Source: an uncultured Bacilli bacterium
GTDB lineage: Bacteria > Bacillota_I > Bacilli_A > RF39 > UBA660
DNA: 46,351 nucleotides
Reading direction: 5' to 3'
Assembly: GCA_944372455.1 (NCBI GenBank)
Contig: CALVZF010000007.1
Coordinates: 1 to 46,351, forward strand
In this document: piece by piece, positions 7,687 through 14,991 of the stretch
Layout: every line of letters starts with the position of its first letter
Position numbering within the stretch: the first letter of the stretch is position 1
Notes under the pieces: model-generated
Seen by the model: only the letters and a program-made list of their open reading frames with translations
The model's database searches: none
What the model was told of the DNA's origin: nothing
Translations under genes and position numbers: made by a program

Positions 7687-10276
<2,590 letters not shown>

Positions 10277-10377: not shown

Positions 10378-11646
10378 ATGAGATTATATGAAATTCCTAA
10401 AAATGTTTTTGATGAATTCTCTGCTAAAAATAAAATAAGAAATTTTTATCAAACAAGTGAATATGGAGACTGGATGGAAAAACGTAGTTATAAGTGTATG
10501 TATTTAGCATTTATGGATGAAGCTAGAACTATTCATGCTGCTACACTTATTATATATAAAAATGTTTTCTCAAGTTATAAATATGGATACGCTCCTAGAG
10601 GTTTTTTAATTAATTACACTGATGAGGAATTATTTAAAGAATTTACTAAGCATTTAAAGATGTTTTTAAAAGCTAAAAATTTTGCTTATTTAAAAATTGA
10701 TCCTCCTATTATATATAAAACTAGAGATAAAAATGGAAAAGAGATTAAAGGTGGAAAAGATAATACTCCTTTAATTGAACGTATGAAAGGGTTAGGTTAT
10801 ATTCATTTAGGATTTAATGATTATTTTGAAGCACTAAAACCTAGATGGAATGCAGTTATAAAATTAGATAAAAATGAAAATGATATGTTTAAATCTTTTT
10901 CTAAAGATACTAGAAATAAAATTCATAATTCTATGAGAAAAGGATTAGAAGTTATTACTGGTTCTAGAGATGATATACCTATTTTTTATGAATTTATTAG
11001 AAAAAATTATAATAGACCAATTAGTTATTATTATGATTATTATGATATTTTTAAAAGAAGAGATATGATTGATTTTTATCTTGTTAAATTAAATACTGTT
11101 AAATATCTTGAAACTTCTAAATATTTATATGAAAGTGAAGTTGAAAATAATAATAAAATTTTACATGAAATGATGGGTAAAAGAAAAAATAAAAGAATTA
11201 CTAACAAAAAAATGGAATCTGATAAATTAATCAATATTTATAAAAAGGATGTTGTAAAAGCTACTAAACTTTTAGCTAAATATCCAGAAGGATTAATAAT
11301 TGGTGGATCTATGATAATTAAATATAACAAGCAATTACAATTTTTAATAGATGGTATATCAGATGATTTTAAAACTTTTAATCCTAATCATCTATTAAAA
11401 TGGACTGTTATAAAAGAATATTTAAATTCTAAATTTTATTATGTAGATCTTAATGGTATTGTTGGAAATTTTTCTAAAGAAAATAATAATTATTATGGAC
11501 TTAATAAATTTAAATTAGGTTTTAATAGCGATGTTATTGAATATATCGGAGAATTTAACTTACCTATTAATTCTACTATTTATCATATAGTACAAAGATC
11601 TAGTGCTTTAGGACTTACAAATAATATCGGTACTAACAAAAAATAA
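10378..11646 (+). CDS. FemAB-family peptidoglycan bridge peptidyltransferase
   Basis: The 422-residue protein has the pattern of the Fem/MurM aminoacyl-tRNA-dependent transferases. The first lobe starts with FYQTSEYGDWMEKRSYK and contains YGYAPRGFLINY and YLKIDPPI. A substrate-facing part contains FSKDTRNKIHNSMRKGLEV. A long charged helical segment (about 240-290) corresponds to the coiled-coil arm. The second lobe contains IIGGSMIIKY and YYVDLNGI. These enzymes add the first or later residues of the interpeptide bridge to lipid II at the inner membrane face. Which amino acid is used cannot be read from the sequence. AAAGGAGGTG lies just before the ATG. It is single in its transcript and ends in a strong terminator. 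Confidence 0.88.
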   Translation: MRLYEIPKNVFDEFSAKNKIRNFYQTSEYGDWMEKRSYKCMYLAFMDEARTIHAATLIIYKNVFSSYKYGYAPRGFLINYTDEELFKEFTKHLKMFLKAKNFAYLKIDPPIIYKTRDKNGKEIKGGKDNTPLIERMKGLGYIHLGFNDYFEALKPRWNAVIKLDKNENDMFKSFSKDTRNKIHNSMRKGLEVITGSRDDIPIFYEFIRKNYNRPISYYYDYYDIFKRRDMIDFYLVKLNTVKYLETSKYLYESEVENNNKILHEMMGKRKNKRITNKKMESDKLINIYKKDVVKATKLLAKYPEGLIIGGSMIIKYNKQLQFLIDGISDDFKTFNPNHLLKWTVIKEYLNSKFYYVDLNGIVGNFSKENNNYYGLNKFKLGFNSDVIEYIGEFNLPINSTIYHIVQRSSALGLTNNIGTNKK

Positions 11647-11669
11647 GAACACTAAGTGTTCTTATTTTT
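11639..11669. terminator. Bidirectional terminator
   Basis: A 14-bp perfect stem (arms containing AAGAACAC and GTGTTCTT) with loop TAA is bordered by A and T runs. It covers the last codon of the FemAB-type gene and the stop codon of the converging signal peptidase gene. Confidence 0.9.
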
Positions 11670-12248
11670 TATGGCTTTTTTAGCCTTTTGTTTTTGATTT
11701 GTAAGTTTAGCAATTTTTACTATATCATAAGCTATAACTGATAAACATGGTATTAAAATTATTAATAACCAACCACCTTTAGAAGCAACAAAGAATTGTA
11801 ATCTTCCTAATTGAGGAATTCTTAGCCATACTTTACCAACAATATTTTCCTTCATTGTTAATGCTTCATCTGCTATATTGTTGGCATCTCCTTGTGTTCT
11901 AAATATCCCTTTTTCAGCATCTATAACCTCTATTATTCTATGTGTAACTGTTACTCCATAAAATCTGTTATCATTTGAGTAAAATGTTATAACGTCACCT
12001 TTTTTTAATGTAGAAGTATCCACTCTTTTAGAAACTATTACATCATAAACGTGTATATTGGGTTCCATACTTCCACTTATGATTACATAAGCGCCAAATA
12101 ATGGCTTTGCATTTCCACCTTTTGCTTTTTGTATTTTCATATCTACTAAGTATACGATAAACATTAATGCTATAAAAATTAATAAAACTAAGGCAGAATA
12201 TGAAATTATTGTAGTAACCCTCTTTAATATTCTCTTAAATTTATCCAT
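11652..12248 (-). CDS. sipW: SipW-type (ER-type) signal peptidase I
   Basis: An N-terminal membrane helix (about 10-35) precedes SGSMEP, with catalytic Ser60. VTHRI supplies His103 in place of the lysine of ordinary bacterial enzymes, and TQGDANN supplies Asp121. This Ser-His-Asp set defines the SipW/Sec11 class. A second hydrophobic helix lies near the C-terminus. SipW enzymes process TasA/camelysin-like surface proteins, and such a gene lies two positions upstream. I chose the ATG at 12248, because AAAGGAG sits 8 nt before it. An ATG at 12272 would overlap the upstream stop and lacks this site. The product is 198 residues. Confidence 0.93.
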   Translation of the reverse strand: MDKFKRILKRVTTIISYSALVLLIFIALMFIVYLVDMKIQKAKGGNAKPLFGAYVIISGSMEPNIHVYDVIVSKRVDTSTLKKGDVITFYSNDNRFYGVTVTHRIIEVIDAEKGIFRTQGDANNIADEALTMKENIVGKVWLRIPQLGRLQFFVASKGGWLLIILIPCLSVIAYDIVKIAKLTNQKQKAKKAIKNKNT

Positions 12249-12264
12249 GGTGGATTCTCCTTTG

Positions 12265-12954
12265 CTAATCATCTAATTGATTCATTTCTAGAACTAACCT
12301 TCCCGCATAGAATTTATTTTGAGCTTCATTAGAAGCACTTTCATCAATCCAAACTCTAAAAGTAAAATCTCTTAAACTTGAAGCATCTAATTTTTCTTGA
12401 AGTAATATTTCATTTTCAAGATCTGAAACTAGTCCCGTTTTAATTATTTTACCTTTTTCAAGATCAGTTAGTGAGTATTTAACAAAAGTATTATTAATTC
12501 TGTCTTTTCCTTTTATTTCTTTAACATTAACTAATTCTTTAAGTGGAACATTAATTAGTTTTAAACGATATTCAACTTTATATGTACCGGTATTTTCAAT
12601 TTTAAAATGAAAAGGATCTAAAGTAGCAGCTTTTTCATCACTCATAGGATAAGAATCAATTAATCTTATTAGAGTGTCGTTTTGTCCAACTAATTTCATT
12701 GATAGAGTACCAACTTTAATTTTATCTGGATCAACTTTATTAATGTTGAAAATTGATGATATTGTGAAAGATCCTGATATGATTAATACTATAATTGTTA
12801 ACGAATATAAAAATAATAAAATAAATGGTTTTTTTGTTTTTTCTTCTTCTACGAACGCTTCTTTAGGGGCATCACATTTTGGACATCTATAATTTTCAGG
12901 TAGTTCATCAAAAGAAACTTTAAAATTACAATTTACACATTTAAATTTTTTCAT
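12265..12954 (-). CDS. Rubredoxin-like zinc-ribbon membrane protein, TasA-like exterior
   Basis: Residues 1-35 form a rubredoxin-like metal site with Cys6, Cys9, Cys24 and Cys27; YRCPKCDAPKEAF matches the second rubredoxin knuckle. A single membrane helix follows at about 44-68. The outer 160 residues have a beta-rich pattern: VGTLSMKL, then YPMSDEKAATLDPFHFKIENTGTYK. This resembles the TL-L ... sD ... F-F--NtGt layout of TasA/camelysin-type domains. It lies between the TasA-like gene and sipW on the same strand, 17 bp before the sipW start. It may anchor, nucleate or redox-regulate the surface fibre. The domain assignment is by pattern only. Confidence 0.75.
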   Translation of the reverse strand: MKKFKCVNCNFKVSFDELPENYRCPKCDAPKEAFVEEEKTKKPFILLFLYSLTIIVLIISGSFTISSIFNINKVDPDKIKVGTLSMKLVGQNDTLIRLIDSYPMSDEKAATLDPFHFKIENTGTYKVEYRLKLINVPLKELVNVKEIKGKDRINNTFVKYSLTDLEKGKIIKTGLVSDLENEILLQEKLDASSLRDFTFRVWIDESASNEAQNKFYAGRLVLEMNQLDD

Positions 12955-12994
12955 AATAACACTCTCCTATGTTATCAAAGTTATTATATAATAA

Positions 12995-13020
12995 AAACTT
13001 GCATTGTTCAATGCAAGTTT
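12995..13020 (-). terminator. Terminator after the TasA-like gene
   Basis: An 11-bp perfect stem (AAACTTGCATT with AATGCAAGTTT) and a 4-nt loop are followed by TTATT on the minus strand, while the stem itself ends in three T. It lies between the TasA-like gene and the two downstream genes. It probably keeps most transcription on the first gene while letting some through. Confidence 0.8.
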
Positions 13021-13056
13021 GAAATTTTTTTTATTATCGTTAAAATTTTAAGTAAA

Positions 13057-13662
13057 CTAAACTTGTGCTTCTTGAGCAGCATCTACTACTAATTTAGCAG
13101 TAATTGTTAAACCTTGTAATTGATCTTGTTGGCTATCTTTATTTTCAATCCAAATATATAAAGTATAATTATCAGTGTTAGTACCAGCAGGGATTGCCAC
13201 ATTTTTTATAAGTTCTAGGTTAGTTGCATTACCACTAGTAAAATCACCTGTTGCTTTTTCAGTTTCACCTTCATACAATGCCCATTTAACATCTGATAAA
13301 GCACCACCTGTTTTTCCATCTGTATCATTTAATGCAATACCAGTAGTTGTTAAACTTACTTTATATACTCCTGTACTAATTGTAGTACCATCAGTTACAA
13401 CAGATAATCCAACTTTTGCAATATCAGCATTCGCATCATTTTCAGTAATGGTACTTGACCAAACTGTTGGTTTAATTGATTTTCCTTGTGTTAATGATGA
13501 TGTAGCTGCTACTTTTAATTCACCAGTTTGAACATTTTGAGTTGCAGTCCCACCTGTTGCTGAGAAATATGCAAATGTTGCACCTATTGTAGCTACAACT
13601 AATACTGCAATTCCAATTACAGTTAACAATACCTTATTAGCGTTATTTCCTCTTTCTTCCAT
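13057..13662 (-). CDS. TasA/camelysin-like SipW-dependent surface protein
   Basis: The 201-residue protein starts with a short charged stretch and one hydrophobic segment (about 10-28) ending in GATFAYFSATGG. This is the SipW-dependent signal pattern, with cleavage expected near the Ala/Phe residues. The remaining 165 residues are Thr/Ala/Gly-rich, poor in Lys, cysteine-free and beta-like, starting with VQTGELKV. TasA and camelysin polymerise into matrix fibres or act as surface proteases, but which applies here cannot be told. Codon and residue use is less AT-driven than that of neighbours, as in highly expressed genes. A near-consensus promoter, GAGGAGG and its own terminator support high expression. 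Two downstream genes supply the peptidase and a membrane partner. Confidence 0.82.
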   Translation of the reverse strand: MEERGNNANKVLLTVIGIAVLVVATIGATFAYFSATGGTATQNVQTGELKVAATSSLTQGKSIKPTVWSSTITENDANADIAKVGLSVVTDGTTISTGVYKVSLTTTGIALNDTDGKTGGALSDVKWALYEGETEKATGDFTSGNATNLELIKNVAIPAGTNTDNYTLYIWIENKDSQQDQLQGLTITAKLVVDAAQEAQV

Positions 13663-13689
13663 TCCTTTCTTTACCTCCTCTACTATTAG

Positions 13690-13718
13690 ATAATATCATA
13701 TTTTTTTTCTTTGTACAA
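13690..13718 (-). promoter_or_regulatory. Promoter for the TasA-like operon
   Basis: TTGTAC (13718-13713), a 17-nt spacer with eight A residues and TATTAT (13695-13690) form a good sigma-A promoter. The leader would be only about 20 nt and includes GAGGAGGT. Confidence 0.75.
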
Positions 13719-13765
13719 TAGCAAAAATCAAAAATGTAGTAAATTAAATATTTAAACTGTAAATA

Positions 13766-13806: not shown

Positions 13807-14991
13807 TTATTCAATTATTTCAGAAACTTTACCAGCACCAACTGTTCTTCCACCTTCACGGATTGAGAATTCAGTACCATTTTCTACTGCGATTGGAGCG
13901 ATTAATTCAACAGTCATACTTACATTATCTCCTGGCATAACCATTTCTACACCTTCAGGTAAAGTAATTACACCTGTAACGTCAGTAGTTCTGAAATAGA
14001 ATTGAGGTCTATAGTTTGAGAAGAATGGAGTATGTCTTCCACCTTCTTCTTTAGAAAGAACATAAACTTCTGCTTTGAATTTTTTATGTGGATGAACACT
14101 TCCTGGTTTAGCAAGTACTTGACCACGTTCTACTTCTTCACGAGCAATACCACGTAATAATACACCAGCATTATCTCCTGCTTCAGCATAGTCTAATTGT
14201 TTTCTAAACATTTCAATTCCAGTAACAACTGTTTTTTTAGTATCTTTTAAACCAACTATTTCTACTTCATCATTTAATTTTAATTGTCCACGTTCTACAC
14301 GTCCAGTAACAACTGTTCCACGACCTGTAATTGTAAATACGTCTTCAATTGACATTAAGAATGGTTTATCAGTATCTCTTTCTGGAGTTGGAATCCATTC
14401 ATCTACTGCATCCATTAATTCTCCAATAGCTTTTTCAGCTTCTGGATCTCCTTCAAGTGCTTTTAATGCAGATCCACGAATAATTGGAGTATCGTCTCCT
14501 TCATATCCATATTCATTTAATAATTCACGAATTTCCATTTCTACTAAATCTAGTAATTCTGGATCATCAACTTGGTCACATTTATTCATAAATACAACCA
14601 TTCTTGGAACACCAACTTGACGTGATAATAAGATATGTTCACGAGTTTGTGCCATTGGTCCATCACTAGCTGCAATAACTAGGATAGCTCCATCCATTTG
14701 AGCTGCACCAGTAATCATGTTTTTTACATAGTCAGCATGTCCTGGACAGTCAACGTGAGCATAGTGACGTTTATCAGTTTCATACTCAACGTGTGAAGTA
14801 TTAATTGTAATACCTCTTTCTCTTTCTTCAGGTGCTTTATCGATATTTGCATAATCTGTAAATTCAGCTTGACCTTTTGACGCTAAATATTTAGTAATAG
14901 CAGCGGTAAGTGTTGTTTTACCATGGTCTACGTGTCCAATTGTACCAATGTTAACATGTGGTTTTGAACGATCAAATTTTTGTTTTGCCAT
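13807..14991 (-). CDS. tuf: Elongation factor Tu
   Basis: The 394-residue GTPase carries aminoacyl-tRNA to the ribosome. The G motifs are all present: GHVDHGKTT near residue 19, [14 protein letters not shown] (switch I), [12 protein letters not shown] and GSALKALEG. Domains 2 and 3 have [21 protein letters not shown] and the C-terminal [15 protein letters not shown]. It is the last gene of the rpsL-rpsG-fusA-tuf run, with its own candidate promoter after fusA. The sequence has more GC and tighter codon use than its neighbours, as expected for one of the most abundant proteins. Confidence 0.99.

Follow-up and report, generated by a model that had tools for sequence, protein, structure and literature searches.

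In the tapA-sipW-tasA system of Bacillus subtilis, the signal peptidase SipW processes TasA, whose phenylalanine at position P2' hinders LepB (PMC10269814). The TasA fibre assembles by donor strand (PMC9674648), and the proline box at the protomer interface is the most conserved part of the protein (PMC10151520). The stop codon of tapA overlaps the start of sipW (PMC10151520), and TapA has been described both as membrane-associated and as an initiator. In Bacillus cereus, SipW and TasA-like subunits are accompanied by a minor polymerisation helper, CapP, a DUF4047 protein described as being processed by SipW (PMC13082335). In the portions of these sources that were available to us, the way in which a TasA-type fibre is attached to the cell is unsettled. 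Our literature searches, which speak only for the set of papers covered, returned nothing on RF39 with TasA, rubredoxin with SipW, or SipW with metagenome-assembled genomes; other queries turned up chiefly studies of Bacillus, besides papers on unrelated subjects.

Here, we describe a three-gene locus from an uncultured RF39 bacterium of the gut. The window, that is, the whole stretch of DNA analysed, is 46,351 nucleotides long and constitutes contig C7 of a genome of 1.146 Mb in 49 contigs. The three genes, verified at their location and all on the minus strand, encode a TasA-like protein, a transmembrane (TM) protein and SipW. We read them as a compact surface-fibre kit of the TasA/SipW kind in which the middle protein escapes cleavage by SipW and serves as a membrane tether, a reading to which we assign a probability of about 0.6. 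The features on which the argument draws are as follows.

10378-11646, convergent: femAB (FemAB, 254 bits), flanking the module on the sipW side
11652-12248, minus strand: SipW-type (ER-type) signal peptidase, 198 aa from the start supported by a Shine-Dalgarno sequence
12265-12954, minus strand: putative membrane tether, 229 aa, with a tail (residues 1-36), a TM helix (44-71) and an outer domain (79-229)
12983-13011, minus strand: promoter-like TTGAAC-17-TATAAT (10/12) in front of the tether gene, overlapping and following the terminator
12995-13020, minus strand: terminator hairpin between the major-subunit and tether genes, kept in all five orthologous loci
13057-13662, minus strand: candidate TasA-like major subunit, 201 aa, with a SipW-type signal peptide followed by a predicted TasA-like beta-sandwich
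13690-13724, minus strand: weak promoter-like sites of the major-subunit gene (9/12)
13807-14991: tuf, flanking the module on the TasA-like side

The claim of an earlier note on this DNA that the three genes form one module was borne out by their co-occurrence in relatives. The order tuf, TasA-like gene, TM-protein gene, sipW, femAB is kept in five genomes of two genera, namely the window genome (G000) and G001 of the same genus, and G025, G186 and G283 of a second one. Among 386 genomes of the family, strong orthologues of the tether (E < 1e-70) were found in these five only; 112 of the 386 have some match at 1e-10, mostly to paralogues. A draw of 385 genomes at the level of the order listed strong orthologues in four of the same five and in no other genome. 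In G002, a third member of the genus that is 82% complete, neither sipW nor femAB was matched, so that the block cannot be judged there. The named relatives of the locus are metagenome-assembled genomes assigned to Bacilli, Bacillota or Tenericutes. Several of them bear a goat or rabbit ("Lapin") label, and the wider set includes Candidatus Onthousia, which is placed in Bacilli. No Rfam family was found between positions 10200 and 15100.

The last gene is clearly what the earlier note had called it, an ER-type signal peptidase with a Ser-His-Asp arrangement. It scores 99.2 bits against TIGR02228 (cut-off 51.85), and S68, H111, D129 and D135 are invariant in all 12 aligned relatives; its score against the Bacillus SipW equivalog NF046067 (106.4 bits) falls below the cut-off of 190. 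The longest open reading frame (11652-12272) would give 206 aa. The genome encodes one Lep-type peptidase (on contig C28) and this single SipW-type enzyme, so that some 20 surface proteins probably rely on one sipW, a potential bottleneck for the whole surface of the organism. Small cassettes of a sipW-type and a TasA-like gene were also seen in G001 and G024 (L124, L125 and L126), duplicated in G001; two of them (L125 and L126) lie near recombinase- or integrase-like genes, and the two genes of a cassette may be carried together by mobile elements.

The first gene carries the SipW-type signal previously ascribed to it, in textbook form. The signal ends in GATFAYFSA, the predicted cut lies between A31 and Y32, with Ala at P1 and F33 at P2', and the interface proline is P65. 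Cleavage by SipW at this site would release an N-terminal segment to act as donor strand when subunits polymerise, as expected of a major subunit.

Sequence evidence for a kinship of either protein with TasA or camelysin is weak. The major subunit scores 17.1 bits against PF12389, below the curated cut-off of 22.5, and has no NCBIfam match, hence the cut-off of NF046066 is not reached either. Among 74 aligned relatives, four matched PF12389 and four matched NF046066 at 0.01, and TasA, camelysin or SipW-signal models were matched at that threshold by four or five. A PDB sequence search with profiles of both families did not recover TasA. The best PDB match of the tether profile, the archaeal pilin 6nav (E 0.0004), was rejected as homology; the alignment covers mainly the N-terminal helix.

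The predicted structures point more directly to TasA. VIA-align placed the TasA fibre structure 8aur first for both proteins, with Z scores of 7.3 for the major subunit (147 residues; the next match at 6.7, a narrow lead) and 8.1 for the outer domain of the tether (rmsd 3.3 over 134 residues; next row 6.7), Z scores of 7 to 8 being in the range that the tool calls common for arbitrary models. Each score alone is middling, and the assignment is supported mainly because both models pick 8aur. The major-subunit model is only of moderate confidence (pLDDT 76.7), and the tether model, built with 87 related sequences, reaches 93.6 and consists of strands in the tail, the helix at 44-71 and then nine strands. 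In Foldseek searches, 8aur ranked sixth for the tether model (E 0.0055), surrounded by subunits of other donor-strand pili; for the major-subunit model, the Pyrobaculum bundling pili structure 7ueg led the best 50 rows, from which 8aur was absent. The TapA structure 6hqc was not among the VIA-align matches listed for the tether, an absence that excludes nothing. As the earlier note had suspected, then, the outer domain of the middle protein did not prove unlike TasA or camelysin, and the models support a TasA-like fold for the outer domains of both proteins.

The clearest difference between the two proteins lies at the cleavage site. Two genome searches combined gave 23 places in the window genome that encode TasA-domain proteins; 22 could be assessed, a contig-end fragment without the region being left out. 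Ala at P1 together with Phe at P2' is present in 20 of the 22, and a proline equivalent to P65 in every one. The two exceptions are the window tether, which has T at P1 and S at P2', and a paralogue (L075:3034-3606) that is the last gene of an array on contig C6. This array (L075:3034-6496; G000:C6:40033-43495) comprises four short TasA-like genes followed by the tether-like gene without a SipW site, and both array and tether are conserved in G001 (L255). All five orthologous tethers read F-T-x-S at the aligned cleavage position. Since both Ala at P1 and Phe at P2' are lost, the tether should remain in the membrane uncleaved, and we consider it probable that it persists there as a signal-anchor that displays its TasA-like domain on the outer side; that the loss of the site is conserved agrees with the role of anchor that the earlier note had offered for this protein. 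A cut after S67 (followed by I68-F69) is conceivable in the window tether, at a site that is unconserved in the orthologues. In the model, the TM helix extends to residue 71 and the first outer strand begins at 84, leaving little of a donor strand. Because the conserved proline is kept and the TM helix takes up most of the segment that would serve as donor, we infer that the tether can accept a donor strand but cannot give one.

The same counts bear on whether there is a filament at all. The TasA-like proteins might instead make up a monomeric surface layer or adhesin coat, with the tether as one more membrane-displayed member. In this genome, the domain also stands at the start of proteins of about 460-710 aa that continue into dockerin and other C-terminal parts, an arrangement suggestive of display as a function besides the fibre. 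Nevertheless, Ala-x-Phe around the cut in 20 of 22 proteins and the proline in 22 of 22 speak against a coat without fibres, the equivalents in TasA lying at the protomer interface, and we regard such a coat as quite improbable. Among the long surface proteins that begin with a TasA-like domain (L076:2745-4790, L079:3387-5396, L091:2336-4456, L080, L082 and L088), some carry a dockerin after that domain (Pfam Dockerin_1, up to 37.1 bits); by eye, their C-terminal region resembles a formylglycine-generating-enzyme or C-type-lectin fold, with no Pfam match at 0.01. We also observed that the assembly breaks inside members of the TasA-domain family at the ends of contigs C2, C10, C15, C20, C34, C36, C37 and C48 and at the start of C13. 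These breaks, together with several near-identical N-terminal parts, suggest that surface genes have recently duplicated or recombined with one another.

To place the tether among its relatives, sipW loci were collected through a SipW alignment, after a contig scan with the tether as single query had given no match. The 103 loci include some counted under two names, as do the TasA-domain loci (e.g. L163 and L093), and identical proteins were counted once in the sipW-locus survey, the tail and site counts and the tree. TasA-domain genes usually precede sipW, and a small TasA-domain gene often follows it (about 180 aa, with the helix at residue 5). In a tree made with FastTree only (274 of 276 sequences, two being dropped for gaps), the window tether and its orthologues fall in a clade of 64 that contains all 49 of these small sipW-downstream proteins present in the tree (support 0.83). 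Ala plus an aromatic residue is found in 11 of the 59 assessable members of this clade, in contrast to 140 of 200 outside it, a comparison that ignores relatedness; two long window-genome proteins in the clade (L079 and L091) have intact sites. A TasA-fold protein without the SipW mark beside sipW thus appears to be a family-wide feature. In most relatives the gene of this clade sits just downstream of sipW, and in this genus it lies before it. The sipW clusters of many relatives (e.g. L199, L200 and L210) often have a gene of 250-270 aa on their upstream side. On the downstream side there are a tether-like gene, genes for a one-TM protein of 229 aa and a multi-TM protein of 150 aa, and one that resembles ksgA; the 229-aa and 150-aa proteins may belong to the system.

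The position directly before sipW, which is that of tapA, raises the possibility that the tether is a TapA-like initiator, cut by SipW or another protease so that the N-terminus thus released supplies the first donor strand. In relatives, a TasA-like protein often fills this slot, and its cytoplasmic tail tends to exceed those encoded by the TasA-like genes further upstream: the tail is longer by at least 3 residues in 40 of 60 paired loci, shorter in 9 and alike in 11 (Wilcoxon p 1.6e-6, uncorrected for relatedness). Moreover, 41 of 73 proteins in the slot keep Ala and an aromatic residue. However, the window tether and its four orthologues have lost both marks, and the tether domain groups with the sipW-downstream class and not with the other upstream-slot proteins. 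We therefore think an initiator of this kind unlikely and favor the uncut tether.

The tail of the tether bears the four-cysteine, rubredoxin-like site (C6-x2-C9 ... C24-x2-C27) that had been noticed earlier, and the match to Pfam Rubredoxin PF00301 stands at 23.9 bits, above the cut-off of 23.0; that to RUBY_RBDX (25.1 bits) is below its cut-off of 26.5. Basic residues precede the TM helix, which places the tail on the cytoplasmic side. The tail is modelled confidently (pLDDT about 96 for residues 1-30), and the orthologue in G001 keeps all four cysteines (6, 9, 24 and 27) at 50% identity, with no Pfam family matched by its tail at 0.01. One could therefore imagine a sensor in which iron or zinc bound at the four cysteines gates fibre assembly through the TM helix. 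Against this, the tails of the tethers in G025, G186 and G283, three of the five orthologues, are short and charged and lack the site, which occurs in only 2 of 290 distinct TasA-domain proteins at the loci examined, both of this genus; the first knuckle lacks the CGY found in rubredoxin-type proteins of relatives; and no flavoprotein or signalling gene was recognised inside the block. Where other matches of the tether N-terminus in relatives involve a four-cysteine protein, it is a rubrerythrin-like or hydrogenase protein, and these matches were set aside. The redox or metal sensing suggested in the earlier note thus went unsupported, and we hold it to be highly improbable. Given its distribution, we treat the tail as a genus-level decoration and not as a defining part of the system. 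A still more speculative version, in which the tether of one genus gained a cytoplasmic rubredoxin-like switch and the internal metal or redox state gates the start of the fibre at the membrane, is a very long shot; if true, it would mean inside-out control of an extracellular fibre.

Between the first gene and the other two lies a perfect hairpin of 11 pairs. Three terminator-like sites were found against 0.6 expected, so the separate terminator attributed to the first gene is well supported; it is also conserved in the orthologous loci. The block CTTGCATTGAA...GTTTTTATTATATAAT is invariant in the five loci save for a few stem and loop positions, unlike the tether proteins of these loci, which differ from the window tether at half of their positions or more. 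The TATAAT of the promoter-like site in front of the tether gene is likewise invariant in all five. The array on C6 and its counterpart in G001 each have a hairpin of another sequence at the equivalent place, followed by TATAAT. The window hairpin has a single copy in the genome, even with up to 2 mismatches allowed, and the idea of a shared operator was rejected on that ground. The near-consensus promoter once proposed for the first gene did not hold up, as its sites reach only 9/12 and such matches (14 found, 15.1 expected) do not exceed those in shuffles. Because hairpin and TATAAT, conserved in 5/5 loci, split the first gene from the tether-sipW pair, the dosage of the two parts may be unequal; judging from the DNA, the tether and the peptidase are presumably expressed separately from the major subunit and at a lower level.

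If the main reading is right, the first gene would supply subunits that polymerise once cut, and the uncut tether, able to accept a donor strand, would secure either the fibre base or, at SipW, its subunits to the cell surface. The terminator and promoter would keep the dosage of major subunit apart from that of tether and peptidase. A membrane-fixed member of the same fold beside its peptidase across gut Bacilli would then answer directly, and in a way open to testing, how such fibres are attached in a large uncultured group.

The locus shares with B. subtilis tapA-sipW-tasA a single ER-type signal peptidase, a TasA-fold subunit, abundant there and presumably here, with Phe at P2', and a minor accessory protein whose gene immediately precedes sipW. 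The earlier note had placed this combination of genes outside the tapA-sipW-tasA system, which is correct for the rubredoxin-like tail and not for the tapA-like slot before sipW. Unlike TapA, the accessory protein here has a predicted TasA fold, a TM tether and a rubredoxin-like tail, and lacks a SipW site; the gene order is tasA-like, tether, sipW, and neither curated TasA nor TapA models are matched by sequence. The sipW-tasA-capP-calY system of B. cereus resembles the locus in combining SipW and TasA-like subunits with a minor polymerisation helper, but CapP is a SipW-processed DUF4047 protein, whereas the helper here would have the TasA fold and no site. Finally, the archaeal donor-strand fibres (Pyrobaculum bundling pili, 7ueg; Sulfolobus threads, 7pnb; cannulae, CanA) are likewise built of beta-sandwich subunits and appear among the Foldseek and VIA-align matches.
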